DNA from: a virus
DNA length: 50,046 nucleotides
Virus record (IMG/VR): IMGVR_UViG_3300047994_000044
Coordinates: 1-50,046 of that record
Direction: 5' to 3' (one strand)
Under the pieces are notes generated by a model that saw nothing but the letters and a program-made list of their open reading frames with translations, was not told where the DNA came from and did not search any database. Within the stretch, counting starts at the first letter, position 1; each line of letters begins with the position of its first letter. Positions 2,914 through 49,998 of the stretch are shown here, in pieces. A program made the translations under genes and the position numbers.

Positions 2914-3528
2914 ATGACATCCAAGTTCATCCCAGAACTAAGCACCACATCCAAAGATACAACTCCATATGTCAACAACAAAGAAATGTTGGCAGCTATC
3001 ACTCAATATCGTAAAGAGTGTCGAGCAGCTAAGAGAGCCAAGTTACCTAAACCAAAGATTCCTGATTCTATTGGCAAACAAATTCAATTGATTGCTATTA
3101 ATCTTTCACATAAGCCTAATTTTAGTCAATACACTTTCAAAGCAGACATGATTGGTGATGCTATTGAAAATTGTATTATGTACTTTGATAACTTTGATCC
3201 TAAGAAGTCCAAGTATCCATTTGCTTACTTTTCTAAAATTACTTTTTATGCGTTTGTTCGTAGAATCCAACGTGAAAAGAAGCATCTCTACATCAAATAC
3301 AAAGCTACACAGCAAGCCGGTGTCCTTCACGATGCCGAATACAGTGATGAAGACAATCCAGGTGAACAGTTTGAGCTATACGAGAACATCACTGACTTCA
3401 TTGGTAAGTATGAAGAATCTCAGGAACGTGCTAAAGCCAAGAAGGCGCTTCCTAAAAAGAAAAAGGGATTGGAGATAGCCATGGAAGATGAAGTATCTCT
3501 GGAATCTATTGAAGAAACCAATGAGTGA
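2914..3528 (+). CDS. 55: gp55-like late sigma factor
   Basis: The 204-aa protein resembles T4 gp55 (about 185 aa), a minimal sigma factor that directs host RNA polymerase to late promoters together with gp33 and the sliding clamp. The sigma region 2 signature is visible around residues 70-130: MIGDAIENCIMYFDNFDP followed by FAYFSKITFYAFVRRIQREK. The tail is acidic and lysine-rich. The leader carries AAAGGTC as Shine-Dalgarno, flanked by GACC and GGTC that could pair. TAAATA boxes elsewhere in the window are candidate targets. Confidence 0.85.
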   Translation: MTSKFIPELSTTSKDTTPYVNNKEMLAAITQYRKECRAAKRAKLPKPKIPDSIGKQIQLIAINLSHKPNFSQYTFKADMIGDAIENCIMYFDNFDPKKSKYPFAYFSKITFYAFVRRIQREKKHLYIKYKATQQAGVLHDAEYSDEDNPGEQFELYENITDFIGKYEESQERAKAKKALPKKKKGLEIAMEDEVSLESIEETNE

Positions 3529-16128: not shown

Positions 16129-16501
16129 CCTATTCAAAGATATTATTCCTTCGCTACTTTTGACGAAAAAGTATTGCTTAGAGGACGAGAAGGATTACAA
16201 CGCATACGTTGTGAACAAGGTTGTTAGTAACCATCAGGACGGCATCTTTCTTGCCGTTGAGATGAACAAGTATCCTGACCTTCCGAAGAAGGCGCAGTAT
16301 GATTTCTATTTCAACGGATTGGTTTCTAAGCGAAGACCCTATGTGAAATGGAATAAGAATGCTAAGGAGGCAGATGTTGAATTGGTTAAAAAGTATTTTA
16401 ATTATAATGAAACCAAGGCCAGAGACGCTTTGAAGATCCTAAATACTAACCAGTTGGACATGATTAGAAAAATTTTAGAAGCGAGTGAAGAACATGGATG
16501 A
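16121..16501 (+). CDS. 62: gp62-like clamp loader small subunit
   Basis: The 126-aa protein shows the gp62 pattern of marine T4-like phages: VNKVVSNHQDGIFLAVEMNK, then a YDFYFNGLVSKRRPYVKW segment and a helical KARDALKILN end. It is shorter than T4 gp62 (about 187 aa). It binds the gp44 tetramer to form the clamp loader. It overlaps RegA by 8 bp. Confidence 0.85.
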   Translation: MADLFKDIIPSLLLTKKYCLEDEKDYNAYVVNKVVSNHQDGIFLAVEMNKYPDLPKKAQYDFYFNGLVSKRRPYVKWNKNAKEADVELVKKYFNYNETKARDALKILNTNQLDMIRKILEASEEHG

Positions 16502-16898
16502 TTTATTTAAGGGCGTGGGCCTAGAAGTGACTTTGACAAAGCCGGATAGTTTCAACATTATCCGTGAATCGTTGACCCGTATTGGTGTTGCTGCCAAGAA
16601 CGAAAACATCCTTTACCAGTCTGCACATATTCTCCATAAGCAAGGTCGCTATTCCATAGTTCATTTCAAAGAGCTATTCGCTTTGGATGGTAAGCCATCT
16701 ACAATTACCGAGAATGACTATCAACGTCGTAATACGATTGCCAAGCTTTTAGCCCAATGGGAACTATTAACAATCATTCCTGAGATTCCAGAAACCGATT
16801 TAGCTCCATTGTCTCAGATCAAGATTATCTCTTTCAAAGACAAAGCTGATTGGCAGCTTGTTGCCAAGTACAGCATAGGAACTAAGAAGAAACTTTAA
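16494..16898 (+). CDS. regA: RegA-like translational repressor
   Basis: The 134-aa product follows T4 RegA (about 122 aa) closely: EVTLTKPDSF, ESLTRIGVA, LYQSAHILHKQGRY, IVHFKELFALDGK and a final KIISFKDKADW segment. RegA binds the start regions of replication mRNAs and represses their translation. The ATG at 16494 is chosen over a GTG at 16485 because it matches the expected N-terminus. Gene order 45-44-62-regA is as in T4. Confidence 0.92.
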   Translation: MDDLFKGVGLEVTLTKPDSFNIIRESLTRIGVAAKNENILYQSAHILHKQGRYSIVHFKELFALDGKPSTITENDYQRRNTIAKLLAQWELLTIIPEIPETDLAPLSQIKIISFKDKADWQLVAKYSIGTKKKL

Positions 16899-23557: not shown

Positions 23558-23789
23558 TTTGGGAAGGTTTATTTCTTTGAGCAAGTCACCGCTATCGACT
23601 TATAACAAAGAGCAACGTCAGATGTTTAAGGGCGCAGGCCCAGAAGGATATGAGCGTGCTCTACGCATGCTTTTTATTGACGCTCATGGTCATCACAAGG
23701 GTTTCAAGCTTCAACGTCTAGCAAGAGAAGTGGTTGCTGAATTGAAGGAAGATATTGCTAACACAACGGCAGCAGTTTCAGCTACTTAA
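23517..23789 (+). CDS. Hypothetical 90-aa basic protein
   Basis: ATG at 23517 behind GGAG (23507-23510), chosen over an ATG at 23502 that lacks spacing. It overlaps the previous gene by 41 bp and its stop overlaps the polymerase start (TAATG). The N-terminus is Ser/Arg-rich and the C-terminal half is helical and charged. No family is recognised. Coupling to DNA polymerase suggests a shared expression time. Confidence 0.6.
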   Translation: MANRSSFNSTLPRNLGRFISLSKSPLSTYNKEQRQMFKGAGPEGYERALRMLFIDAHGHHKGFKLQRLAREVVAELKEDIANTTAAVSAT

Positions 23790-26434
23790 TGAAGTCTACA
23801 AATTTCTATACAAACGTCCAGCACTACGGGAATAATGTTCTATTCCGTGGTGTCGTGGATGGGAAGCGCGTAAGGAAGCGCCTTCCATATCAACCTCGTC
23901 TATATACGGTTTCTAAGAACTATCAGTCACCGTACAAGACCCTTTCTGGTCAACCACTAGACGAGGTATCTTTTGAAGATATCAACGCACACAAAGAGTT
24001 TAGGAAAAAGTATCAGCACATTCCTGGATTCAAATTGTATGGTGATAATCGTCATGAATACTCTTTCATTTCTGATTTTTACACTAATGACATTGAGTTT
24101 AAGTTCTCTGACATTGTCGTAGCCTATATCGATATTGAGGTTGGTTCTCAAAATGGATTTCCTAAGCCTGAACAGGCCAATGAGCCTATAACAGCCATCA
24201 CTATCCATGTTGCCGGTAAGTTCTATGTGTTTGGTTATGGTAACGGTTCAGATCAAATGTTTACGACAACTCGTGAAGATGTCATTTACACTCATTGCGC
24301 AGATGAAAAAGATCTAATTCGTAAGTTCATGGAGCTATGGAAGAAGCATTATCCGGACATTGTTACTGGATGGAATGCTTGTCGTTCATTGCGTATGGGT
24401 AATCCCAGTGCAGGGTTCGACTTTACTTACATGATCAATCGTATGGAACGATTATTCATGGGTTCCGATGGTGAGGATTTAATCAAGCAATTATCACCGT
24501 GGGGTTGGGTCAGAAAACGCAATGTTAGAGTTGGCACAGACGAAATCTGTTATCACGAGATTTCCGGTGTCGCTATGATTGATTACATTGATTTGTACAT
24601 CAAGTTTTCTGCAAACCCAAGTCAAGAGTCATACAAGTTAGATTATATTGGTAGCGTGGAAGTCGGATCAAAAAAGATCGACTATTCTGAATACGAAGAT
24701 TTGTACAGCCTATTTGTTAAGAATTATCAAAAGTTCATCGATTACAACATTGGTGACGTTGAATTGGTTATGAAGATCGAAGCAAAGAATGCTTTGATCG
24801 AACAGATTGTGACTCTCGCTTACGATGCTCGCGTCAACTTCGAGGATGTGTTCTCACAGGTTCGTATGTGGGATACGATTGTCATGAACGAACTTAAGCG
24901 CAAAGGTATCATGATGCCTCCCAAGAAGGAGAATCCTAAGAGCGAACAGTTCATAGGTGGTTACGTTAAAGAGCCTAAAGCCGGTATGTACCATTGGCTC
25001 GCTTCATTCGACTTTACTAGCCTTTATCCTCATTTGATCATGATGTTTAATATCTCTCCTGAAACATTGCTTCATCCTGAAGAGTTCAGTGATCTTCTAT
25101 TGGCATGGTTTGAAAAATGTAACTTTGGTAAAAATACCGACAATATCGAGTGTATGCTAGAAAAGATCTACGACACTAATATTCTTAAAGACGAGAAAGT
25201 CACGTTGACGCCTAATGGTCAGTTCTTTAGGACGAATGTTCGTGGATTCTTGCCGGATATCATGGACCGAATGTACAAAGATCGTGCTGCTTACAAGAAG
25301 AAAATGACTGAGCAGAAAAAGCTTCTTGAAAAGACTACCGACCCTGAGGAAAGATTGAAGATTGAAGCTTTGATCACAAAGTATAACAACCTTCAGGCTT
25401 CCAAGAAGATTCAGTTGAACTCAGCTTTCGGTGCCGTTGGAAATCAATACTTCCGATTCTTTGATGTTCGTTTGGCTGAAGCCATCACTACATCTGCTCG
25501 TCTATCTGTTCAGTTCATTCAGAAGAGACTTAATGAGTTTATTAATAACCGTACAGGTCAGACCAATGGTGACTATGTCATTGCTAGTGATACCGATTCG
25601 GTCTATGTCACCTTTAAGGCGATTGTAGACGCTGCGTACACGCCTGAGCAGCAGAAAGCTATGGGGCCGGGAAAGGTCATAGAACACTTGGATAAGGTCT
25701 GCGAGAAGGTTATAGCGCCTCAGGTGAAGGCTTTTTGCCAGGAACTAGCTGACTATACCAATGCTTACGAACAGAAGCTAGAAATGAAGCGTGAAGCTTT
25801 GGTAGATCGCGCCATCTGGGTCAAGAAGAAGCATTACATGTTGAACATTTACAACATGGAGGGTGTGCAGTACGCCAAGCCAAAGCTTAAGATTACCGGC
25901 ATGGCAGCTATCAAGTCATCTACTCCAGGTGCTTGTCGTAAGGCAGCAAAAGAAGCTTTCGAACTTATTATTAATGGTGGAACTATTAAAGAACTTCGTG
26001 ATTTCAATGAGAAGTTTCGTAAGGAATTCTTTAACCTTCCGGTACAAGATATTGCTGCACCATTGGGCATGCACGGATTAGAGAAATATGATGGCTCCAA
26101 CAGTACCGAAATTATTTTTCGAAATAAGACCCCAGCACATGTGAAGGGAGCTATCGTCTTTAATCGTTGGTTAATCAGGAAAGATCTTACGAGAAAGTAC
26201 CAATCTATTAAAGAAGGTGAAAAACTTAAGTACGTTTACTTGAAAGAACCCAACAAGCTTCAATCCGATGTCGTGTCGTTTACGACAGTGATTCCTAAAG
26301 AGTTTGAAGTGGACGATAGTATTGATTATGAAGCAATGTTCAATAAGAATTATCTTGTGCAAATAGAACGTGTCACTGAGGCCATTGGGTGGGAACTAGA
26401 GGAAAGAGGATCTTTAGAGCATCTGTTCCAGTAG
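23789..26434 (+). CDS. 43: gp43-like family B DNA polymerase
   Basis: An 881-aa replicative polymerase (T4 gp43 about 898 aa). Exonuclease motifs: Exo I IDIE near 114, Exo II GWN...FDFTYM near 193-215, Exo III YNIGDVE near 322. Polymerase motifs: A DFTSLYP near 409-415, B KIQLNSAFG near 537-545 (Phe in place of the usual Tyr), C SDTDS near 600-604. A ten-residue insertion lies inside Exo II between GWN and FDF. No intein or intron interrupts the gene. The stop is followed by the uvsX promoter. Confidence 0.95.
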   Translation: MKSTNFYTNVQHYGNNVLFRGVVDGKRVRKRLPYQPRLYTVSKNYQSPYKTLSGQPLDEVSFEDINAHKEFRKKYQHIPGFKLYGDNRHEYSFISDFYTNDIEFKFSDIVVAYIDIEVGSQNGFPKPEQANEPITAITIHVAGKFYVFGYGNGSDQMFTTTREDVIYTHCADEKDLIRKFMELWKKHYPDIVTGWNACRSLRMGNPSAGFDFTYMINRMERLFMGSDGEDLIKQLSPWGWVRKRNVRVGTDEICYHEISGVAMIDYIDLYIKFSANPSQESYKLDYIGSVEVGSKKIDYSEYEDLYSLFVKNYQKFIDYNIGDVELVMKIEAKNALIEQIVTLAYDARVNFEDVFSQVRMWDTIVMNELKRKGIMMPPKKENPKSEQFIGGYVKEPKAGMYHWLASFDFTSLYPHLIMMFNISPETLLHPEEFSDLLLAWFEKCNFGKNTDNIECMLEKIYDTNILKDEKVTLTPNGQFFRTNVRGFLPDIMDRMYKDRAAYKKKMTEQKKLLEKTTDPEERLKIEALITKYNNLQASKKIQLNSAFGAVGNQYFRFFDVRLAEAITTSARLSVQFIQKRLNEFINNRTGQTNGDYVIASDTDSVYVTFKAIVDAAYTPEQQKAMGPGKVIEHLDKVCEKVIAPQVKAFCQELADYTNAYEQKLEMKREALVDRAIWVKKKHYMLNIYNMEGVQYAKPKLKITGMAAIKSSTPGACRKAAKEAFELIINGGTIKELRDFNEKFRKEFFNLPVQDIAAPLGMHGLEKYDGSNSTEIIFRNKTPAHVKGAIVFNRWLIRKDLTRKYQSIKEGEKLKYVYLKEPNKLQSDVVSFTTVIPKEFEVDDSIDYEAMFNKNYLVQIERVTEAIGWELEERGSLEHLFQ

Positions 26435-26451
26435 AGTATTAACCATATTTT

Positions 26452-26482
26452 TGCTATAATGTTCCTTCTTATTAGAAGGAAC
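26452..26482 (+). promoter_or_regulatory. Extended -10 promoter fused to a hairpin that hides the uvsX Shine-Dalgarno
   Basis: TGcTATAAT (26452-26460) is a consensus extended -10. GTTCCTTCT (26461-26469), loop TATT, AGAAGGAAC (26474-26482) make a perfect 9-bp hairpin holding the AAGGA of uvsX, whose ATG is at 26487. The predicted start near 26467 lies in the 5' arm. Confidence 0.75.
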
Positions 26483-26486
26483 GACT

Positions 26487-27578
26487 ATGGAAAACAAGCA
26501 AAATAAACCAAACAAACTCCTAGACAAAATCAAGAAGAATTCAACAATCAAAGAATCAGCCATTCTGTCTGACTCAAAGTTCTTCGATAAGAAAGATCAA
26601 ATCAAAACAGAAATTCCTATTCTTAATGTGGCACTATCAGCAGATCTTAATGGTGGTATCTCACCAGGTTTGACTCTTTGGGCCGGTCCATCTAAACATT
26701 TTAAGACGGCATTTCTTTTAATGATGGTTAAGGCTTATCAAGAAAAATATCCAGATGGTGTATGTTTGTTTTACGATTCCGAATTTGGAACGGGTAAAAC
26801 ATATTTTGATGCATTTGGTATAGATATGTCTCGTGTTGTTCATAGTCCGCTTACAGATGTTGAGCAATTGAAGTTTGATATCATGGCTCAACTTCAGGAA
26901 GTGGAACGTGGCGACAAATTATTCATTGCTATAGATTCTGTTGGTAATCTAGCTTCTAAGAAAGAAGTAGAAGATGCATTAGCCCAGAAGTCAGTCACCG
27001 ACATGACTCGCGCTAAACAAATCAAATCTTTGTTCCGTATGGTTACCCCACATTTGAATCTTAAAGATATTCCAATGCATGTAGTAATGCATATCTACAT
27101 GGAACAAGGAATGTACCCGAAGGCCATTATTAGTGGTGGTACTGGACCTTTGTATTCCGCAGATAGTGCATTCATCATTGGTCGTCAACAAGAAAAAGAA
27201 CAAGGTGAAACTGAAATTCTTGGTTACGATTTTATTATCAATGTTGAGAAGTCTAGATTCGTCAAAGAAAAATCTAAGATTCCAATTGAAGTACGTTTCG
27301 ACGGTGGCATCAGCCAATTTTCTGGACTAAAAGATCTTGCTATTGAATCAGGTCATGTAACTAAACCTAAGCCTGGTTGGTATTCGCGTGTAGACATGGA
27401 GACCGGTGAAGTTGAAGATAAGCTATGGCGCAAAGCAGACATGAATTGCGCAGAGTTTTGGACACCTATTTTGAATGATCAAAAATTCAAAGATTGGATC
27501 AAAGACACATACGCTTTGACTGGCGATTCAATGTATCAAGGCTATGAGGATCTTAATATTGAGGATGGAGACGAATAA
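26487..27578 (+). CDS. uvsX: UvsX-like RecA-family recombinase
   Basis: The 363-aa protein (T4 UvsX about 391 aa) has Walker A GPSKHFKT near residues 67-74, Walker B LFIAIDSVGNL near 145-155, the DNA-binding loop region TRAKQIKSLFRM, and HIYMEQGMYP. It forms filaments on single-stranded DNA for strand exchange with UvsY. The acidic C-terminus is typical. Its leader is a strong hairpin with the Shine-Dalgarno inside. Confidence 0.94.
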   Translation: MENKQNKPNKLLDKIKKNSTIKESAILSDSKFFDKKDQIKTEIPILNVALSADLNGGISPGLTLWAGPSKHFKTAFLLMMVKAYQEKYPDGVCLFYDSEFGTGKTYFDAFGIDMSRVVHSPLTDVEQLKFDIMAQLQEVERGDKLFIAIDSVGNLASKKEVEDALAQKSVTDMTRAKQIKSLFRMVTPHLNLKDIPMHVVMHIYMEQGMYPKAIISGGTGPLYSADSAFIIGRQQEKEQGETEILGYDFIINVEKSRFVKEKSKIPIEVRFDGGISQFSGLKDLAIESGHVTKPKPGWYSRVDMETGEVEDKLWRKADMNCAEFWTPILNDQKFKDWIKDTYALTGDSMYQGYEDLNIEDGDE

Positions 27579-29577: not shown

Positions 29578-29613
29578 TATAAATACGTTAGTTAATAACA
29601 AAAGGAAATTAAC
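29578..29613 (+). promoter_or_regulatory. T4-type late promoter box TATAAATA with a leader hairpin
   Basis: TATAAATA (29578-29585) is the full T4 late consensus. GTTAAT (29591-29596) and ATTAAC (29608-29613) could pair around the AAAGGA of the next gene. A start about 7 nt after the box falls at the beginning of the 5' arm. Confidence 0.7.
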
Positions 29614-44746: not shown

Positions 44747-45067
44747 ACTTTGGAAGCTGGAAATCCGTCGAGGAAACTCGTGAAGCCAGCATCAATTTCT
44801 CAAGCATTCTTTGGATTCCATTGAATGACCTTGGTCGCCCTCACCACCTAAATCAGGTTGGACTAAAACGTGTCCAGCATTGTTAAGTACCTATTAGGGA
44901 AACACGATGTAAAGCAGGGAAACTCTAACGCGGGGAACGTTGGTTCGAATCCAACAGGTTCATCTATACCGGCTCTCGAAAACGTACCGAGATTCAAGTG
45001 CTCACGCACGCGACCGGCGAGCCTTCGTCTAGTGGCCCAGGACACCCGCACTTTATTTTCGATTTAT
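44747..45067 (+). other. Structured tRNA-like and tRNA-remnant region
   Basis: No protein gene is seen. Visible pieces are: GCTGG/CCAGC around CGAG-gaaa-CTCG (44756-44790); TGGAC/GTCCA (near 44869-44878); a canonical T-arm GTTGG-TTCGAAT-CCAAC (44939-44955) with no matching acceptor 5' strand except a poor one at 44886; TCTCG/CGAGA (44973-44991); and a tRNA-Glu-like 5' half with TTCGTCTAGTGGCCCAGGAC at 45024-45043. I read these as decayed or rearranged tRNA genes. Confidence 0.5.
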
Positions 45068-45139
45068 TCCAGTAGACGCGCAAGGTGTGCGGGATCGCTG
45101 TTAACGATTTGTGGCAAGGTTCGATTCCTTGTGCTGGAG
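45068..45139 (+). tRNA. tRNA-Asn (GTT)
   Basis: Acceptor TCCAGTA/TGCTGGA, discriminator G. The anticodon arm GATCG-CTGTTAA-CGATT gives GTT. T-arm CAAGG-TTCGATT-CCTTG. No CCA is encoded, unlike most tRNAs of this island. The D-stem is short (CGC/GCG). Confidence 0.8.
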
Positions 45140-45270
45140 AAAATTAACGCGGAACTGTTGACTAAGGCTGACAACCTAAACATCGACTCGTCATCGTATG
45201 TGCCAACAGTTCCATTATTGAATCCTAATGTCCGAGTCCGGATCGTGAGACTAACACGTAAAAAAGATCT
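45140..45270 (+). other. Structured spacer with a 10-bp stem, no tRNA assigned
   Basis: GGAACTGTTG (from 45151) pairs perfectly with CAACAGTTCC (ending 45213), enclosing about 43 nt with a TAAGG-CTGACAA-CCTAA loop like an anticodon arm. A TCCG-AGTC-CGGA hairpin follows near 45231. There is no T-arm consensus or CCA. Possibly a degenerate tRNA. Confidence 0.4.
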
Positions 45271-45341
45271 GTCCTCGAAGACAAACGGTAAGTCGCCCGA
45301 ATTTGAATCGGGAGAAGCAGGTTCAATTCCTGTCAAGGATC
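45271..45341 (+). tRNA. tRNA-Gln (TTG), first copy
   Basis: Acceptor GTCCTCG/CAAGGAT with one C-A mismatch. The anticodon arm CCCGA-ATTTGAA-TCGGG gives TTG. T-arm GCAGG-TTCAATT-CCTGT. D-stem of 3 bp (GAC/GTC). No CCA is encoded. Confidence 0.7.
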
Positions 45342-45343
45342 TT

Positions 45344-45398
45344 GCAGGGTTTTATCCATAACATTAGAAACGCTTCACCCTGGCGCGGATTGTTATGG
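45344..45398 (+). ncRNA. Candidate H-type pseudoknot
   Basis: CAGGG (45345-45349) can pair with CCCTG (45378-45382), and CCATAAC (45356-45362) with GTTATGG (45392-45398). The two helices cross, which makes a pseudoknot directly between tRNA-Gln and tRNA-Lys. Confidence 0.4.
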
Positions 45399-45406
45399 TC
45401 TTATTC

Positions 45407-45482
45407 GGGTCTGTCGTATAACGGCTATTATATCTCCCTCTTAAGGAGCACGATCAGGGTTCAAATCCCTGCGGACCCACCA
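45407..45482 (+). tRNA. tRNA-Lys (CTT)
   Basis: Acceptor GGGTCTG/CGGACCC, discriminator A, CCA encoded. Anticodon loop CTCTTAA gives CTT. T-arm CAGGG-TTCAAAT-CCCTG. Confidence 0.85.
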
Positions 45483-45488
45483 AAATTT

Positions 45489-45562
45489 GGGCTGTTAGTT
45501 AAATGGGATAACAGTGGCCTTGCAAGTCACTATTGAGAGTTCGATTCTCTCACGGTCCACCA
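45489..45562 (+). tRNA. tRNA-Ala (TGC)
   Basis: Acceptor GGGCTGT/ACGGTCC, A, CCA encoded. Anticodon arm GTGGC-CTTGCAA-GTCAC gives TGC. T-arm GAGAG-TTCGATT-CTCTC. Confidence 0.88.
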
Positions 45563-45602
45563 AATACGTGTTGTCGGTACTAGAGTAGAGAACCGTCGTT
45601 AC

Positions 45603-45677
45603 GCTCTCAAAGCATTGTTGGCGATGCACGGGTTTTGTAAGCCTGAGAACTCAGTTCGATTCCGAGTGAGAGCACCA
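45603..45677 (+). tRNA. tRNA-Thr (TGT)
   Basis: Acceptor GCTCTCA/TGAGAGC perfect, A, CCA encoded. Anticodon arm CGGGT-TTTGTAA-GCCTG gives TGT. D-arm GCAT/ATGC. The T-stem has one mismatch. The 40 nt before it (45563-45602) hold a CGGT/ACCG hairpin only. Confidence 0.88.
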
Positions 45678-45683
45678 ATTTAT

Positions 45684-45760
45684 GGGTTGTTCGTCTACGT
45701 TGGCTAAGACCGTAGTCTCCAAAACTATCAAAGGCGGATCGTCACCGTCACAACCTGCCA
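45684..45760 (+). tRNA. tRNA-Trp (CCA)
   Basis: Acceptor GGGTTGT/ACAACCT, G, CCA encoded. Anticodon arm GTAGT-CTCCAAA-ACTAT gives CCA. The T-arm GGCGG-ATCGTCA-CCGTC has a non-standard loop instead of TTCGAAT. Confidence 0.8.
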
Positions 45761-45794
45761 CTAAATACTCCAAACAACAAAATAAGGTTTGGAG
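45761..45794 (+). promoter_or_regulatory. TAAATA late-type box fused to a hairpin that hides the HNH ribosome site
   Basis: CTAAATA (45761-45767) is followed by CTCCAAAC (45768-45775) pairing with GTTTGGAG (45787-45794), which contains the GGAG of the ORF at 45797. A late start near 45774 would remove the 5' arm. The layout is like the regulation known for the T4 homing endonuclease I-TevI. Confidence 0.65.
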
Positions 45795-45796
45795 TC

Positions 45797-46143
45797 ATGT
45801 CGATAAGAAATATAAAAAAAGTCAGACAATCTCGTAGAGATTGGTACGCTAAGAACCAACAACATGCAATCTCTAAAATCAAAGAAAGACGATCTATATT
45901 GAAAGAATGGATTCAAGAATTCAAAAAAATTTAATGTGCGCTAAATGTGGACAAAATCATCCGGCAACATTGCAATTTCATCATTCTGATCCATCACAAA
46001 AAGATATTGAAATTAGCCAAATGCATAAGCAAGGCTATTCAATTCATAGGATGAAAGAAGAAATCGCGAAGTGCGTTGTGCTGCGTGCCAATTGTCACGC
46101 TATCGTACACTACGAAGAAAGAAATAATCTCGCTGTGGTATAG
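45797..46143 (+). pseudogene. HNH endonuclease split by a frameshift
   Basis: Frame one (45797-45934) encodes the N-terminal basic helix (RRDWYAKNQQHAISKIKERR). A run of seven A (45923-45929) precedes its stop. The -1 frame continues as NLMCAKCGQNHPATLQFHH...KCVVLRANCHAIVHYEE, an HNH/zinc core, to 46143. The second zinc pair reads RxxC where CxxC is expected (one base change). Frameshift plus lost zinc ligand indicate decay, though slippage on A7 could restore the frame. It sits inside the tRNA island, and its 3' end overlaps tRNA-Arg. Confidence 0.8.
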
Positions 46144-46203
46144 AGGATGTGCCTTGAGCTTCTACCTCAATGAACGTCGGTTCGAATCCGGCCAGCGGGT
46201 CCA
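46129..46203 (+). tRNA. tRNA-Arg (TCT)
   Basis: Acceptor CTCGCTG/CAGCGGG, T, CCA encoded. Anticodon arm TTGAG-CTTCTAC-CTCAA gives TCT. T-arm GTCGG-TTCGAAT-CCGGC. Its first 15 bases are also the last codons of the HNH reading frame. Confidence 0.85.
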
Positions 46204-46210
46204 AAATTAT

Positions 46211-46301
46211 GGTGCAGTAAAACCCTTAAGGATGGGGACCGGTCTGTAAAACCGGTGAGCCTAATAAGCCTAGCCAGGATCGTTACCTGGATGCACCACC
46301 A
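46211..46301 (+). tRNA. tRNA-Tyr (GTA)
   Basis: Acceptor GGTGCAG/ATGCACC (one mismatch), A, CCA encoded. Anticodon arm CCGGT-CTGTAAA-ACCGG gives GTA. A long variable arm is present as expected for bacterial Tyr. T-loop ATCGTTA. Confidence 0.85.
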
Positions 46302-46306
46302 AATTC

Positions 46307-46402
46307 GGTCCTATAGTTTAATGGTTAAAACACCACCCTTATAAAGTGGCTTTGGCGGCAGATTACCGCATGATCCAGGTTCGAGTCCTGGTGGGACTAC
46401 CA
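46307..46402 (+). tRNA. tRNA-Ile (TAT) with an unusual long variable arm
   Basis: Acceptor GGTCCTA/TGGGACT, A, CCA encoded. Anticodon loop CTTATAA gives TAT. The variable region is about 25 nt with a GCGG/CCGC helix, a class II feature not expected for Ile. T-arm CCAGG-TTCGAGT-CCTGG. Confidence 0.7.
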
Positions 46403-46406
46403 AATC

Positions 46407-46485
46407 GCCTCTGTAGCAGAATTGGCATATGCACTGCACTTAAAACGCGGGTTACTTGCGGGTTCGACTCCCGCTGGAGGCACCA
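46407..46485 (+). tRNA. tRNA-Leu (TAA)
   Basis: Acceptor GCCTCTG/TGGAGGC, A, CCA encoded. Anticodon loop CTTAAAA gives TAA. T-arm GCGGG-TTCGACT-CCCGC. The variable region is short for Leu. Confidence 0.82.
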
Positions 46486-46491
46486 AACAAA

Positions 46492-46574
46492 GTCTCTATC
46501 TTGCGGGTAGAGACAGCCCACCACCCGGCAGGAGTGGGCATTACGGTTGCCGCAAGCAACACCGGATGACGTAA
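46492..46574 (+). ncRNA. Structured RNA with candidate kissing loops
   Basis: Hairpins GTCTCTA/TAGAGAC (46492-46514), GCCCAC/GTGGGC (46516-46539) and GTTGC-CGCAA-GCAAC (46546-46560), the last enclosed by TTACG/CGTAA (46541-46574). Loop 1 contains TTGCG (46501-46505), complementary to the CGCAA loop. No tRNA features or ORF. Confidence 0.6.
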
Positions 46575-46591
46575 CCGGTTCAATATATTTT

Positions 46592-46667
46592 CAGGGTGTC
46601 GGTTAGCGGCTATACCACATGCCTTGGGCGCATGGAATCGCGAGTTCGAGTCTCGCCACCTTGACCA
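46592..46667 (+). tRNA. tRNA-Pro (TGG), first copy
   Basis: Acceptor CAGGGTG/CACCTTG, A, CCA encoded. Anticodon arm CATGC-CTTGGGC-GCATG gives TGG. T-arm GCGAG-TTCGAGT-CTCGC. Confidence 0.88.
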
Positions 46668-46676
46668 CGATCATAC

Positions 46677-46761
46677 GATAGCAAAGATCTACAAGTAGCT
46701 ATCCAGGCTGAACCATTTCGTAGCCTCTCTCGGTTCAGTATGGTGAGAGGGTGAGTAGATC
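46677..46761 (+). ncRNA. Candidate double-pseudoknot RNA
   Basis: GATAGC/GCTATC (46677-46682, 46698-46703) encloses GATCTAC (46686-46692), which pairs with GTAGATC (46755-46761). CTGAACC/GGTTCAG (46708-46714, 46732-46738) encloses CCTCTC (46724-46729), which pairs with GAGAGG (46745-46750). All four helices are perfect and two pairs cross. No ORF or tRNA features. Confidence 0.65.
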
Positions 46762-46774
46762 ACATTTTAATTTT

Positions 46775-46861
46775 CTAGTTTTCAAAAACTAGATGGTGGA
46801 GTGGTTAGACTTAGGTCTGCCCCAAAAATGCGCTAAAGCCGACGCTAAAATATCGGATTAT
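46775..46861 (+). other. tRNA-like remnant
   Basis: Contains a D-arm-like GGTGGAGTGGTTAGACTTAG (from 46794) and a CCGA/TCGG hairpin but no T-arm or CCA. It is preceded by CTAGTTT/AAACTAG (46777-46794). Probably the 5' part of a lost Leu- or Ser-type tRNA. Confidence 0.4.
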
Positions 46862-46936
46862 GCTCTGTTAGATTACCGGCTAGATCGACGCCCTTTCAAG
46901 GCGTAGGAAGGGGATCGACACCCCTACGGAGTACCA
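46862..46936 (+). tRNA. tRNA-Glu (TTC)
   Basis: Acceptor GCTCTGT/ACGGAGT, A, CCA encoded. Anticodon arm ACGCC-CTTTCAA-GGCGT gives TTC. T-arm AGGGG-ATCGACA-CCCCT, with a non-standard loop. Confidence 0.85.
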
Positions 46937-46942
46937 ATTTAT

Positions 46943-47017
46943 GCGGATGTGGTACAAAGGCTGTGCCCCTGGCTTCCAACCAAGAGTATACGAGTTCGAG
47001 TCTCGTCTTCCGCTCCA
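46943..47017 (+). tRNA. tRNA-Gly (TCC)
   Basis: Acceptor GCGGATG/CTTCCGC (one mismatch), T, CCA encoded. Anticodon loop CTTCCAA gives TCC. T-arm ACGAG-TTCGAGT-CTCGT. Confidence 0.87.
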
Positions 47018-47022
47018 ATTTC

Positions 47023-47106
47023 GGTTCTGTAGCTCAATAGTAGAGCGTCAGGTTAGATAGCATCAAACCAGAAGGCTATGCGGTTCAAATCCCATCAGAG
47101 CCACCA
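47023..47106 (+). tRNA. tRNA of uncertain identity with enlarged anticodon arm
   Basis: Acceptor GGTTCTG/CAGAGCC, A, CCA encoded; D-arm GCTC/GAGC. The anticodon arm is 25 nt: TCAGGTT pairs with AACCAGA (one mismatch) around an 11-nt loop AGATAGCATCA that holds CAT and GCA triplets. The T-stem needs a bulged C. It could be Met, Cys or a decayed gene. Confidence 0.55.
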
Positions 47107-47113
47107 AGTTTAT

Positions 47114-47196
47114 TCTCTTGTAGCTCAATATCGAGAGCTTACTGCCGTTTTCGCGAACGGTAAGTGATGGAGGTCCGAATCCTTCCGAGAGAGCCA
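47114..47196 (+). tRNA. tRNA of uncertain identity with extended, bulged anticodon arm
   Basis: Acceptor TCTCTTG/CGAGAGA, G, CCA encoded; D-stem GCTC/GAGC but a D-loop without GG. The anticodon arm is about 25 nt: TTAC/GTAA and CGTT/AACG separated by a 3-nt bulge with loop TTCGCG. The anticodon cannot be assigned. T-arm GGAGG-TCCGAAT-CCTTC. Confidence 0.5.
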
Positions 47197-47201
47197 ATTA
47201 C

Positions 47202-47277
47202 GTCCCGGTAGCACAATGGATAATGTTTACGCCTCCTAAGCGTTAAGGTACAGGTTCGATTCCTGTTCGGGACACCA
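47202..47277 (+). tRNA. tRNA-Arg (CCT)
   Basis: Acceptor GTCCCGG/TCGGGAC, A, CCA encoded. Anticodon loop CTCCTAA gives CCT. T-arm ACAGG-TTCGATT-CCTGT. Confidence 0.87.
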
Positions 47278-47283
47278 ATTTAT

Positions 47284-47358
47284 TGACCCTTAGCTCAGAG
47301 GCAGAGCGTTGTCTTTACACGGCAAAAGTCGAGATTTCGAAATTCTCAGGGTCAACCA
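47284..47358 (+). tRNA. tRNA-Val (TAC)
   Basis: Acceptor TGACCCT/AGGGTCA perfect, A, CCA encoded. Anticodon arm TTGTC-TTTACAC-GGCAA gives TAC. T-arm GAGAT-TTCGAAA-TTCTC with one mismatch. Confidence 0.85.
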
Positions 47359-47364
47359 CTTTAT

Positions 47365-47412
47365 GCGGCACGGTTCTAGAGCTTACGACACTAACCTGTC
47401 GGTGCCGCTCCA
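47365..47412 (+). other. 48-nt mini-tRNA: acceptor stem plus T-arm-like hairpin
   Basis: GCGGCAC (47365-47371) pairs perfectly with GTGCCGC (47402-47408), followed by T and an encoded CCA. Stacked on it is CGACA-CTAACC-TGTCG. D-arm and anticodon arm are absent and replaced by a 14-nt linker. The usual island linkers flank it on both sides. Confidence 0.6.
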
Positions 47413-47416
47413 ATTC

Positions 47417-47492
47417 GGGTCCTTAACTCAAATGGAAAGAGTCACGCCTTTTAAGCGCAGAGATGTGGGATCATACCCCACAGGACCCACCA
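47417..47492 (+). tRNA. tRNA-Lys (TTT)
   Basis: Acceptor GGGTCCT/AGGACCC perfect, A, CCA encoded. Anticodon loop CTTTTAA gives TTT, with a weak stem (two mismatches). T-arm GTGGG-ATCATAC-CCCAC, with a non-standard loop. Confidence 0.8.
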
Positions 47493-47512
47493 ATCAGTAA
47501 GGAGATTTTCTC

Positions 47513-47665
47513 ATGGCTCAGATCACTAGAAAATATCCAATCGTAGTAGACGGTAAACACATCACTCGATGCACAGTCGTTGATGGTGGAAAAACTGTCC
47601 AAGTCTACTTTCTTGATGAATCAGGAAAGAGATTTAATTCTCTACGAGAATTGCTTTCACTTTAA
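47513..47665 (+). CDS. Hypothetical 50-aa protein inside the tRNA island
   Basis: ATG at 47513 behind AAGGAG (47498-47503) at proper spacing; stop TAA at 47663-47665. The product is 50 aa, beta-rich then helical (ITRKYPIVVDGKHITRCTVV and KRFNSLRELLSL). It lies between tRNA-Lys and tRNA-Ile. No family is recognised. The good ribosome site and intact frame support expression. Confidence 0.65.
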   Translation: MAQITRKYPIVVDGKHITRCTVVDGGKTVQVYFLDESGKRFNSLRELLSL

Positions 47666-47668
47666 TAT

Positions 47669-47743
47669 GCGTCTATCGTCCAATGGCAAAGACATCTGCC
47701 TGATTAGCGGAGAATCGCGGTTCGAGTCCGTGTAGACGTACCA
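47669..47743 (+). tRNA. tRNA-Ile (GAT)
   Basis: Acceptor GCGTCTA/TAGACGT, A, CCA encoded. Anticodon arm TCTGC-CTGATTA-GCGGA gives GAT. T-arm CGCGG-TTCGAGT-CCGTG. Confidence 0.87.
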
Positions 47744-47749
47744 CTTTAT

Positions 47750-47824
47750 GGTCCCATGATCTAATGGCTATGATTTCTCTCTGTCTAAGAGAAAGTAGGA
47801 GTTCGATTCTCCTTGGGATCGCCA
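47750..47824 (+). tRNA. tRNA-Asp (GTC)
   Basis: Acceptor GGTCCCA/TGGGATC, G, CCA encoded. Anticodon arm TCTCT-CTGTCTA-AGAGA gives GTC. T-arm AGGAG-TTCGATT-CTCCT. Confidence 0.9.
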
Positions 47825-47831
47825 AGTTTAT

Positions 47832-47907
47832 TCACTGTTCGTCTAATTGGTAGGACGCTTCGCTTTGAACGAGGAAAATGTACGTTCGAATCGTACACGG
47901 TGATCCA
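47832..47907 (+). tRNA. tRNA-Gln (TTG), second copy
   Basis: Acceptor TCACTGT/ACGGTGA, T, CCA encoded. Anticodon arm CTTCG-CTTTGAA-CGAGG gives TTG. T-arm GTACG-TTCGAAT-CGTAC. Confidence 0.88.
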
Positions 47908-47917
47908 ATTTAAGTTC

Positions 47918-47994
47918 GCCCAATTGATGGAATTGGCATACATACGAATCTCAAAAATTCGGTTTTGCGAGTTCGACTCTCGCATTGGGCACCA
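47918..47994 (+). tRNA. tRNA-Leu (CAA)
   Basis: Acceptor GCCCAAT/ATTGGGC perfect, A, CCA encoded. Anticodon arm CGAAT-CTCAAAA-ATTCG gives CAA. T-arm GCGAG-TTCGACT-CTCGC. Short variable region. Confidence 0.87.
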
Positions 47995-47997
47995 AAC

Positions 47998-48061
47998 GTG
48001 CGAGCCGCTAGACAAATCTAAGCGGGACACAAAAGTCGTGATTGACCCAGGTCATTCACGC
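47998..48061 (+). ncRNA. Two-hairpin structured spacer RNA
   Basis: A bulged hairpin CCGCTAG/CTAAGCGG near 48006-48031, then a long hairpin CGTGA-t-TGAC-CCAG-GTCA-t-TCACG near 48043-48061. It lies between tRNA-Leu and tRNA-Pro. No ORF or tRNA features. Confidence 0.45.
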
Positions 48062-48065
48062 ATCT

Positions 48066-48139
48066 CAGGGTAAAGCGTTACGGTAGCGTTCGAGTTTTGG
48101 AAGCTCGCGGCGCAGGTTCAACTCCTGCTATCCTGACCA
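48066..48139 (+). tRNA. tRNA-Pro (TGG), second copy
   Basis: Acceptor CAGGGTA/TATCCTG, A, CCA encoded. Anticodon arm CGAGT-TTTGGAA-GCTCG gives TGG. T-arm GCAGG-TTCAACT-CCTGC. The D-stem is poor. Confidence 0.8.
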
Positions 48140-48188
48140 TTTAGTGAAACACACCAGGCAATTAGAGCCAAAATGTCTTTCTTTATTT

Positions 48189-48295
48189 CCCGAAGTAGCT
48201 CAAAAGAAGATTGTTTGATCACATGTCCGGGTGGATCATTTAAAAGAGCGTCGTCCTTGCCGACGAAGGTGGTGCAAATCCATTCTGAGGGGCCA
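48189..48295 (+). tRNA. tRNA-like gene with a D-loop of about 44 nt
   Basis: Acceptor CCCGAAG/CTGAGGG (two mismatches), G, CCA encoded. D-stem GCTC/GAGC encloses a 44-nt loop with a TGATC/GATCA hairpin. Anticodon stem CGTCG/CGACG is perfect with loop TCCTTGC (CTT if read as standard). T-arm GGTGG-TGCAAAT-CCATT. Probably decayed or carrying an insertion. Confidence 0.45.
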
Positions 48296-48300
48296 AATTT

Positions 48301-48375
48301 GTTCCTATCTTCTAGAGGCTAGGATGTGGGTTTCTCAGTCCCACGACGAGGGTTCGATTCCCTCTAGGAACACCA
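48301..48375 (+). tRNA. tRNA-Glu (CTC)
   Basis: Acceptor GTTCCTA/TAGGAAC perfect, A, CCA encoded. Anticodon loop TTCTCAG gives CTC. The D-arm is Glu-like. T-arm GAGGG-TTCGATT-CCCTC. Confidence 0.85.
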
Positions 48376-48382
48376 AGTTTAT

Positions 48383-48456
48383 TCATCCTTCGTACAGCGG
48401 CAGTACCCTACTCTCTGAAAGTAGTGACCTAAGTTCGAATCTTAGAGGATGATCCA
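48383..48456 (+). tRNA. tRNA-Gln (CTG)
   Basis: Acceptor TCATCCT/AGGATGA perfect, T, CCA encoded. Anticodon arm CTACT-CTCTGAA-AGTAG gives CTG. T-arm CTAAG-TTCGAAT-CTTAG. Confidence 0.9.
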
Positions 48457-48462
48457 ATTTAT

Positions 48463-48538
48463 GGCGACTATAGTGTAATGGTTAGCACCACTCTCTGTGA
48501 AAGAGTCAGTACGGGTTCAAGTCCCGTTAGCCGCCCCA
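48463..48538 (+). tRNA. tRNA-His (GTG) with encoded G-1
   Basis: Acceptor GCGACTA/TAGCCGC (one mismatch) plus a G at -1 opposite discriminator C, the His signature. Anticodon arm ACTCT-CTGTGAA-AGAGT gives GTG. CCA encoded. Confidence 0.9.
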
Positions 48539-48543
48539 ATTTT

Positions 48544-48629
48544 GGAAGTGTATCTCGTCTGGGATGAGGGCAGTCTTGAAAACTGATCGCTGGTTCGCTA
48601 GTGGCGTTCGATTCGTCACACTTCCGCCA
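48544..48629 (+). tRNA. tRNA-Ser (TGA)
   Basis: Acceptor GGAAGTG/CACTTCC perfect, G, CCA encoded. Anticodon loop CTTGAAA gives TGA. Long variable arm. T-arm TGGCG-TTCGATT-CGTCA, the same as in the next tRNA. Confidence 0.87.
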
Positions 48630-48633
48630 ATTT

Positions 48634-48719
48634 GGAAAGTTATAGAGACTGGGTCTCTGAGTGTCTAGAAAGCACATCGCAGGGAAACTTGTGGCGTTCG
48701 ATTCGTCAGCTTTCCGCCA
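48634..48719 (+). tRNA. tRNA-Ser (AGA)
   Basis: Acceptor GGAAAGT/GCTTTCC, G, CCA encoded. Loop CTAGAAA gives AGA (A at position 34). Long variable arm. It shares its T-arm with the preceding Ser tRNA, which indicates duplication. A Phe GAA reading is possible but fits the stem less well. Confidence 0.72.
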
Positions 48720-48725
48720 AATTAT

Positions 48726-48802
48726 GCGCTTGTGATGAAATTGGCAAACATGTTTGGCTTAGAACCAAAATCTTGCAGGTTCGACTCCTGTCAGGCGCAC
48801 CA
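48726..48802 (+). tRNA. tRNA-Leu (TAG)
   Basis: Acceptor GCGCTTG/CAGGCGC, A, CCA encoded. Anticodon arm TTTGG-CTTAGAA-CCAAA gives TAG. T-arm GCAGG-TTCGACT-CCTGT. Confidence 0.88.
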
Positions 48803-48811
48803 ATTTTATTT

Positions 48812-48888
48812 GCCCAGTTGACGGAATTGGCATACGTACCAGTCTAAGAAGCTGGGTTTTGAGGGTTCGACTCCCTCATTGGGCACCA
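48812..48888 (+). tRNA. tRNA-Leu (AAG)
   Basis: Acceptor GCCCAGT/ATTGGGC, A, CCA encoded. Anticodon arm CCAGT-CTAAGAA-GCTGG gives AAG (A at position 34, rare in bacteria). Similar overall to tRNA-Leu (CAA) at 47918. Confidence 0.85.
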
Positions 48889-48893
48889 AATTT

Positions 48894-48969
48894 GGAACTG
48901 TAGCTGAGGTGGCTTTAGCGTGTCCCTGAAGAGGACGAGATGTAGGTTCGACTCCTACCAGTTCCACCA
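48894..48969 (+). tRNA. tRNA-Phe (GAA)
   Basis: Acceptor GGAACTG/CAGTTCC perfect, A, CCA encoded. Anticodon arm TGTCC-CTGAAGA-GGACG gives GAA. T-arm GTAGG-TTCGACT-CCTAC. Confidence 0.88.
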
Positions 48970-48977
48970 ATTACTTC

Positions 48978-49030
48978 TCAACGAGCGTCAGTGTTTGTAG
49001 AGACGAATGGTATTATTCGTAAAATACTCG
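48978..49030 (+). ncRNA. Structured spacer between tRNA-Phe and tRNA-Met
   Basis: CGAG/CTCG encloses ACGAAT-ggtatt-ATTCGT, a 6-bp hairpin. No ORF or tRNA features are seen in 48970-49060. Confidence 0.4.
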
Positions 49031-49060
49031 CACGGGCAGCGATAGGTCCCAACAATTTAC

Positions 49061-49135
49061 GGTGATATCGTCCAACGGCTAGGGCAGTGGTCTCATAAGC
49101 CATAGATCTGAGTTCGATTCTCAGTATCACCACCA
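49061..49135 (+). tRNA. tRNA-Met (CAT), first copy
   Basis: Acceptor GGTGATA/TATCACC perfect, A, CCA encoded. Anticodon loop CTCATAA gives CAT. T-arm CTGAG-TTCGATT-CTCAG. Confidence 0.88.
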
Positions 49136-49476
49136 GTTTAATGTGATGTTTGGGTTGGTTTTTTGTGACTGATAAACTGCGTTCTTCGGCAGGAAGGTAC
49201 TTCTCACGGGCTGTCGAGAAGGTTTGAGTATGATTAGGTAAGGTAATGACAGAAAGTAACAGGAAAAAGACGGAACCCGCCTGTGATCGCTGCGTAGTTG
49301 GTAGACCATAAACAGTCAGAAGACGACTACGTTGGAGGAAAATTCCTCTCATATCTGCGAAACTTTGTTGCAACAGAGTGGAGATGTGTAAGTCATAAAC
49401 CCACCGGACCTAAAAAGAAAGATAGTAGCTTGACAACTACTCGAAAAATCAGCACCAAACATCATATAAAGATTAT
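49136..49476 (+). other. 341-nt noncoding stretch with hairpins
   Basis: No protein gene is supported. Visible are CTTCTC/GAGAAG (near 49200-49223), CGTAGT/ACTACG (near 49291-49333), GAGG/CCTC (near 49336-49349), a TGTTGCAACA palindrome (near 49364) and AGTAG-CTTGACAA-CTACT (near 49425), which looks like an anticodon arm. No T-arm consensus is present. Possibly decayed tRNA genes or unprocessed structured RNA. Confidence 0.4.
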
Positions 49477-49549
49477 AGCGGGGAAGTCGAAAAAGTTGAC
49501 GACAGGCTCATAACCTGTAGAACTGGAGCATTACCAGCGACCGCTACCA
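49477..49549 (+). tRNA. tRNA-Met or tRNA-Ile2 (CAT), second CAT copy
   Basis: Acceptor AGCGGGG/GACCGCT (five pairs, two mismatches), A, CCA encoded. Anticodon arm ACAGG-CTCATAA-CCTGT gives CAT. T-arm CTGG-AGCATTA-CCAG with a non-standard loop. Initiator GGG/CCC pairs are absent, so a lysidine-modified Ile is possible. Confidence 0.65.
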
Positions 49550-49630
49550 AAATCGTCATGGCGAGTGTTTATCTGTTAGGCTTAGGCAAACCAGATGATC
49601 CTACATGAACTGGAAACGTAACCAGTATCT

Positions 49631-49706
49631 CTCCTTGTGGTGAAACCGGATATCACGAAACGCTACGAACGTTTTATTCCAGATTCGAGTTCTGGCAAGG
49701 GGACCA
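49631..49706 (+). tRNA. tRNA-Arg (ACG)
   Basis: Acceptor CTCCTTG/CAAGGGG, A, CCA encoded. Anticodon arm AAACG-CTACGAA-CGTTT gives ACG. T-arm CCAGA-TTCGAGT-TCTGG. Before it, 49550-49630 holds ACTGG/CCAGT and ATCTG/CAGAT hairpins only. Confidence 0.87.
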
Positions 49707-49739
49707 ATTTCGAACGTTTAATTTACAATGGAGAAATTT

Positions 49740-49916
49740 ATGGTGGACATTATCCACATTTTGATTGTGATTTTTGTTGCAGGTTTTTTGCTATGGCTTG
49801 TCAATAAGGCTCCTTTGCAGGAAACGTTCAAGCAAATTCTAAACGGTGTTGCCATCGTTGCGTTGGTCATATGGTTGGTAGTCCAACTGTTGCCGTATTT
49901 GCACGGCTTTCACTAA
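49740..49916 (+). CDS. Small two-span membrane protein
   Basis: 58 aa from an ATG at 49740 with GGAG (49730-49733) at good spacing; an ATG at 49728 would add four codons. Two hydrophobic segments (DIIHILIVIFVAGFLLWLV and ILNGVAIVALVIWLVVQLL) flank a short polar loop. It resembles small conserved membrane proteins found in phages and bacteria (Thivi_2564-like). It lies between tRNA-Arg and tRNA-Val. Confidence 0.75.
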   Translation: MVDIIHILIVIFVAGFLLWLVNKAPLQETFKQILNGVAIVALVIWLVVQLLPYLHGFH

Positions 49917-49924
49917 ACGGTTTT

Positions 49925-49998
49925 GGTTGTATAGTTCAATGGTAGAACACTTCTATGACATGGAAGATACCTAGGCTCGATTCCTAGTACGACCACCA
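49925..49998 (+). tRNA. tRNA-Val (GAC)
   Basis: Acceptor GGTTGTA/TACGACC, A, CCA encoded. Anticodon loop ATGACAT gives GAC. T-arm CTAGG-CTCGATT-CCTAG. Confidence 0.82.

Follow-up and report, generated by a model that had tools for sequence, protein, structure and literature searches.

We describe a probable cis-acting, start-site-dependent translation gate at the uvsX gene of a T4-like phage. The window analyzed is an IMG/VR record of 50,046 bases from a T4-like phage with recognizable genes for DNA polymerase, UvsX, a DnaB-like helicase, the clamp loader, a late sigma factor resembling gp55 and a RegA-like repressor, with the main genes on the + strand and approximately 30 tRNA genes clustered at positions 45067–49998. 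The uvsX gene (26487–27578, + strand; phrog_97, E=9e-87) encodes a RecA-like recombinase of 363 amino acids that is 62% identical to UvsX of Stenotrophomonas phage DLP6, and it lies co-directionally downstream of a T4 gp43-like DNA polymerase gene (23789–26434, + strand; phrog_262, E=2e-275), the supposed source of read-through RNA. From the sequence anatomy, predicted folding energies and conservation pattern presented here, we infer promoter activity, a start position, a read-through RNA and a block to translation. RNA reading through from the polymerase gene would copy both arms of a 9-bp hairpin that hides the uvsX Shine-Dalgarno (SD) and would yield little or no UvsX, and RNA started locally from an extended −10, with its first base no earlier than where the conserved 5′-arm portion stops, would lack this arm and leave the SD open. 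The outcome would be translational insulation, with UvsX output set by its own promoter and not by the polymerase operon.

The 52 bases between the polymerase stop and the uvsX ATG (26487–26489) hold the −10, the hairpin and the SD. An extended −10, TGCTATAAT, can be read at 26452–26460 (+ strand), with its TATAAT at 26455–26460, and is immediately followed by a perfect 9-bp hairpin at 26461–26482 formed by a 5′ anti-SD arm GTTCCTTCT (26461–26469), a TATT loop (26470–26473) and a 3′ arm AGAAGGAAC (26474–26482) that contains the SD AAGGA (26476–26480). These features and their coordinates confirm the anatomy proposed in an earlier sequence-only reading of this DNA, and the position of the SD within the 3′ arm of a stable leader hairpin is that of start-site-dependent ribosome-binding-site hairpins of the T4 e and I-TevI type. 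No terminator is predicted between the two genes, and the stem has no following T run, ruling out a terminator reading of the hairpin. Because the polymerase stop is located 26 nt 5′ of the hairpin, a terminating ribosome should not open it. The hairpin is the longest perfect hairpin in the window (loop 3–9), and TTTTTGNTATAAT occurs only once; however, Markov-1 controls of window length contain a mean of 1.8 perfect 9-bp hairpins, with at least one in 84%, and a 9-bp hairpin is therefore unremarkable by itself. What is unexpected by chance is its placement, flush with the −10 and over the SD.

Moving the RNA 5′ end base by base, we found that the energy predicted to be needed to release the SD and start codon is ~12–15 kcal/mol for starts at or before 26461, 7.9 kcal/mol at 26464, 2.8 kcal/mol at 26466 and ~1 kcal/mol from 26468. 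The earlier proposal that long RNAs are closed and local RNAs open is thus borne out as predicted energies (~12–15 versus at most 2.8 kcal/mol for starts at or after 26466), and since the cost falls between 26461 and 26466, the prediction requires a start at or after ~26465. As a control, we collected all TATAAT…SD…ATG leaders in 3.6 Mb of phage DNA, excluded those selected for a hairpin and reduced the remainder to 97 protein clusters. The start-dependent SD difference in these leaders has a median of 0.14 kcal/mol, with one reaching at least 6 and none reaching the similarly calculated 8.4 kcal/mol of the window, and their shuffle p-values are about uniform, with no general trend. The window uvsX leader is an outlier among these 97 phage leaders.

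A search with the polymerase C-terminus identified three close records, L394, L395 and L396, each of which has one such element, located each time at uvsX. The TATAAT and the AAGGAAC of the 3′ arm are identical in all four records, the outer six bases of the 5′ arm, GTTCCT, are conserved with one change in L394, and the loop is not conserved. L394, with a polymerase 97% identical to that of the window, carries this single 5′-arm change (GTTCGTTCT), an uncompensated C-to-G that makes the stem less stable (−13.1 kcal/mol in the window, −9.1 kcal/mol in L394), although 8 bp paired in a slipped register (−8.3 kcal/mol) still cover the SD. L395 and L396 share 68–76% protein identity with the window (UvsX 76%) and 39–53% identity at four-fold sites, mostly below 50%, and their element, TATAATGTTCCT-N10-AGGAAC, has the same −10 and the same outer six pairs GTTCCT/AGGAAC in stems of only 6–7 pairs and ~−7 kcal/mol. 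In L396, ~190 nt of extra DNA with a 64-aa frame separate the polymerase gene from the promoter, and promoter and hairpin stay with uvsX. The predicted cost of opening the SD alone in read-through versus local RNA is 6.2 versus 1.1 kcal/mol in L394 and 5.9 versus 0.8 kcal/mol in L395. Between the window and L437, the −10, the 5′ arm and the 3′ arm are each identical at 6/6 bases, with four-fold sites of the polymerase and uvsX genes 39–47% identical; the loop and inner pairs match at one of ten bases between the window and L395/L437.

Comparison of the four close sequences did not reveal the covariation of arms called for by the sequence-only reading: 0/9 pairs changed on both sides, and 4/9 are broken in at least one sequence, including the pair lost in L394. 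Invariant arms cannot covary, and the test therefore neither proves nor excludes RNA pairing; the sequence-only reading had counted arms that do not covary against the gate, and because this partly applies, our confidence in the gate is lowered. The missing covariation, the loss of the stem in wider relatives and the readiness with which chance yields perfect 9-bp hairpins in 50 kb would all fit a coincidence, in which −10 and SD are conserved separately, GTTCCT is a conserved promoter discriminator and the pairing has no role. We nevertheless consider drift of this kind improbable, as two blocks that persist at near-saturated divergence complement each other exactly over six bases (~1 in 4096 per register), conservation of AGGAAC reaches past the SD core, and the 97-leader control holds nothing comparable.

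Conserved arms around a diverged loop are also expected of a DNA operator, and we weighed whether the inverted repeat GTTCCT-N10-AGGAAC, which overlies the predicted start, a place suited to repression, could allow a phage or host repressor to block the uvsX promoter, with the RNA hairpin as a by-product. Half-site centers 16 bp apart are an unusual spacing for a dimeric repressor, however, and the repeat is found only once each in the window, L437 and L438, has one half-site altered in L394 and places its 3′ half on the SD, a coincidence that an operator does not need. An operator is thus an unlikely explanation, on a par with drift. Less likely still is that the hairpin is a translational repressor site for RegA, DNA polymerase or UvsX, with autocontrol like that of the T4 gene 43 and gene 32 leaders. 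The phage does encode RegA (16485–16895), and in T4 both gp43 and gp32 act on leader structures to repress the mRNAs that encode them (PMC3014915), but T4 RegA sites are described as A+U-rich and without RNA structure (PMC3014915), the loop, usually important in such sites, is not conserved, and the structure would be missing from local transcripts.

GTTCCT fills the gap between the −10 and a predicted start zone at 26466–26471 (+ strand), with +1 at ~26467. The earlier placement of +1 at 26467, inside the 5′ arm, agrees with the usual −10 spacing (26466–26468), but the bases there are pyrimidines, with 26467 itself a T, and in L395 and L396 the base at the equivalent +1 position, seventh after the −10, is instead an A, well suited as a start and lying directly 3′ of GTTCCT. 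In the window, the −10 abuts the 5′ arm and the predicted +1 falls after the conserved six bases. Given the A in L395 and L396, the uvsX start is better placed, probably, where the conserved portion of the 5′ arm stops or immediately beyond it, and the conserved 5′ arm would be the part absent from local RNA. Upstream, the putative promoter lacks a good −35 (TAGAGT at 26432–26437) and contains a conserved block TTAACYATATTTTTGN (26439–26454, + strand), including the TG of the extended −10, that is identical in L394 and differs in L395 and L396 only at Y and N positions. From the polymerase stop to the base before the −10, 18 of 23 bases are identical between the window and L395/L437, where four-fold sites are 39–50% identical. 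In L426 (4686–4705, minus strand), the promoter block AACNATATTTTTGNTATAAT is also present ahead of a gene resembling dNMP kinase, without a hairpin.

The mechanism class is already known, and uvsX is a further case of it, here predicted from sequence. For T4 e, soc, 49 and I-TevI, RNAs begun upstream hide the SD in a hairpin and locally begun RNAs are missing its 5′ part and stay open, with a ~100-fold effect reported for the lysozyme gene e (PMC3014915; PMC2988022). In phages, the genes so controlled are late ones carried on long RNAs along with early and middle genes (PMC2988022). The local uvsX start is likewise predicted to drop the 5′ part of an SD hairpin; in contrast to these late genes with a late TATAAATA promoter, uvsX is a recombination gene with a sigma-70-type TATAAT and extended TG, which sets it outside the T4 late-promoter subclass. 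TATAAATA, the late promoter word of the T4 type, occurs once in the window, at 29578–29585, 36 bases 5′ of a small ORF (29614, 59 aa), consistent with the gp55-like sigma encoded at 2914–3525. In Bacillus subtilis sigG, a hairpin proposed to block read-through translation cannot form in own-promoter RNA, the same logic of insulation from an upstream operon, although there the stem exceeds 20 pairs, the gene is a cellular sporulation gene and the sequence is unrelated (PMC5942855). Aeh1 mobE and T4 segB similarly sequester the SD in a leader hairpin in T4-like phages, but unlike uvsX are homing endonuclease genes, with mobE described as a promoter-less cassette (PMC2988022). T4 uvsX, like that of the window, has its own promoter, PuvsX, which differs in being a MotA-dependent middle promoter (PMC2988021), and no SD hairpin was found in the Tevenvirinae uvsX leaders examined.

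These comparisons bear on whether the element is a timed switch, since the word "switch" used in the sequence-only reading implies regulated timing. Its start-site dependence is upheld in predicted folding, but a sigma-70-type −10 fits constant insulation better than timing. A gate of the T4 gene e kind, with the local promoter active in one phase of infection and read-through RNA present in another, would follow the mode of T4 e, soc, 49 and I-TevI (PMC3014915, PMC2988022), and a gp55-like late sigma is encoded (2914–3525); the −10 is nonetheless TATAAT with extended TG, not the late TATAAATA, and T4 uvsX itself has the middle promoter PuvsX (PMC2988021), leaving a timed switch with little probability. 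Because the promoter is not late-type and the gene is a recombination gene, insulation of UvsX from polymerase-operon read-through is favored over an early/late switch and is the most likely role.

In a survey of 80 IMG/VR UvsX loci, TATAAT or TACAAT was found in many, 32–36 bases 5′ of the ATG and often with TTGCTT 17 bases upstream; 22 further distinct relatives carry one of the two hexamers 32–38 nt from the start codon, about as far as in the window. No start-dependent hairpin beyond shuffle level was detected among these wider leaders, and across 25 promoter-bearing UvsX leaders the effect is confined to the window and its close relatives, so that uvsX does not need the gate. Deep conservation of the hairpin across the UvsX family was accordingly rejected, with weak YCC-NNNN-GGAG mini-stems performing no better than shuffles. 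Since the promoter position is shared in the wider family and the hairpin is not, the gate appears to have been acquired locally, at a promoter position that predates it. Stenotrophomonas phage Moby (L084, ~1940–1985) has another, dissimilar strong hairpin, GTGCGGAG-acaac-CTCCGCAC, between the polymerase gene and uvsX, but it is placed upstream of the SD and does not cover it. BLASTN of the polymerase–uvsX intergenic region against named phages gave no significant match; the upstream promoter motif has 14 matches in bacterial genomes, none near a uvsX, and motif counts in the genomes with matches do not resolve the host.

A broader survey for TATAAT–antiSD–SD–ATG returned at least 119 stretches versus 67 for a non-complementary control, corresponding among the matches listed to 44 versus 34 protein clusters. 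One cluster accounts for 31 of the 98 matches listed, and its true −10 is probably elsewhere (TTGACA-16-TATAAA); with a 6-bp arm there are 15 matches, against 2 when the arm is displaced, and that same cluster supplies about half of the 15. With cluster counts close to control, bias from a single cluster and no trend in the 97 leaders, we do not claim that the architecture is widespread in phages. Among individual loci, L212, L187, L237 and approximately 30 more carry the conserved leader TTGACATTATAATACC-TCCTTTATAAAAGGA-GGTATG before genes of one uncharacterized family (167 aa) that matches nothing in Pfam or PHROG; the leader stem takes in the SD and part of the start codon, variants keep the pairing, and the true −10 may be a TATAAA within the stem. 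In other phages, TATAAT immediately followed by an anti-SD stem also occurs 5′ of an HNH endonuclease, a dNMP kinase, a 5′–3′ exonuclease and an endonuclease VII-like gene (L234, L248, L283, L304).

The six bases that separate −10 and start may have been kept as an anti-SD arm, a single sequence serving as both promoter and translation lock; it is a tentative proposal, somewhat short of even odds, that a core recombinase of T4-like phages would in this way depend for its expression on its own sigma-70-type promoter alone and be shielded from the replication operon for the whole of infection. The 58 nt involved form a small, easily tested construct whose translation should vary with the choice of start site and nothing else. 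If true, the gate would show a device classically known from T4 late genes at work on a prereplicative recombination gene with a promoter of host type, and would suggest that phages insulate the output of single genes in dense co-directional arrays via promoter-embedded hairpins.
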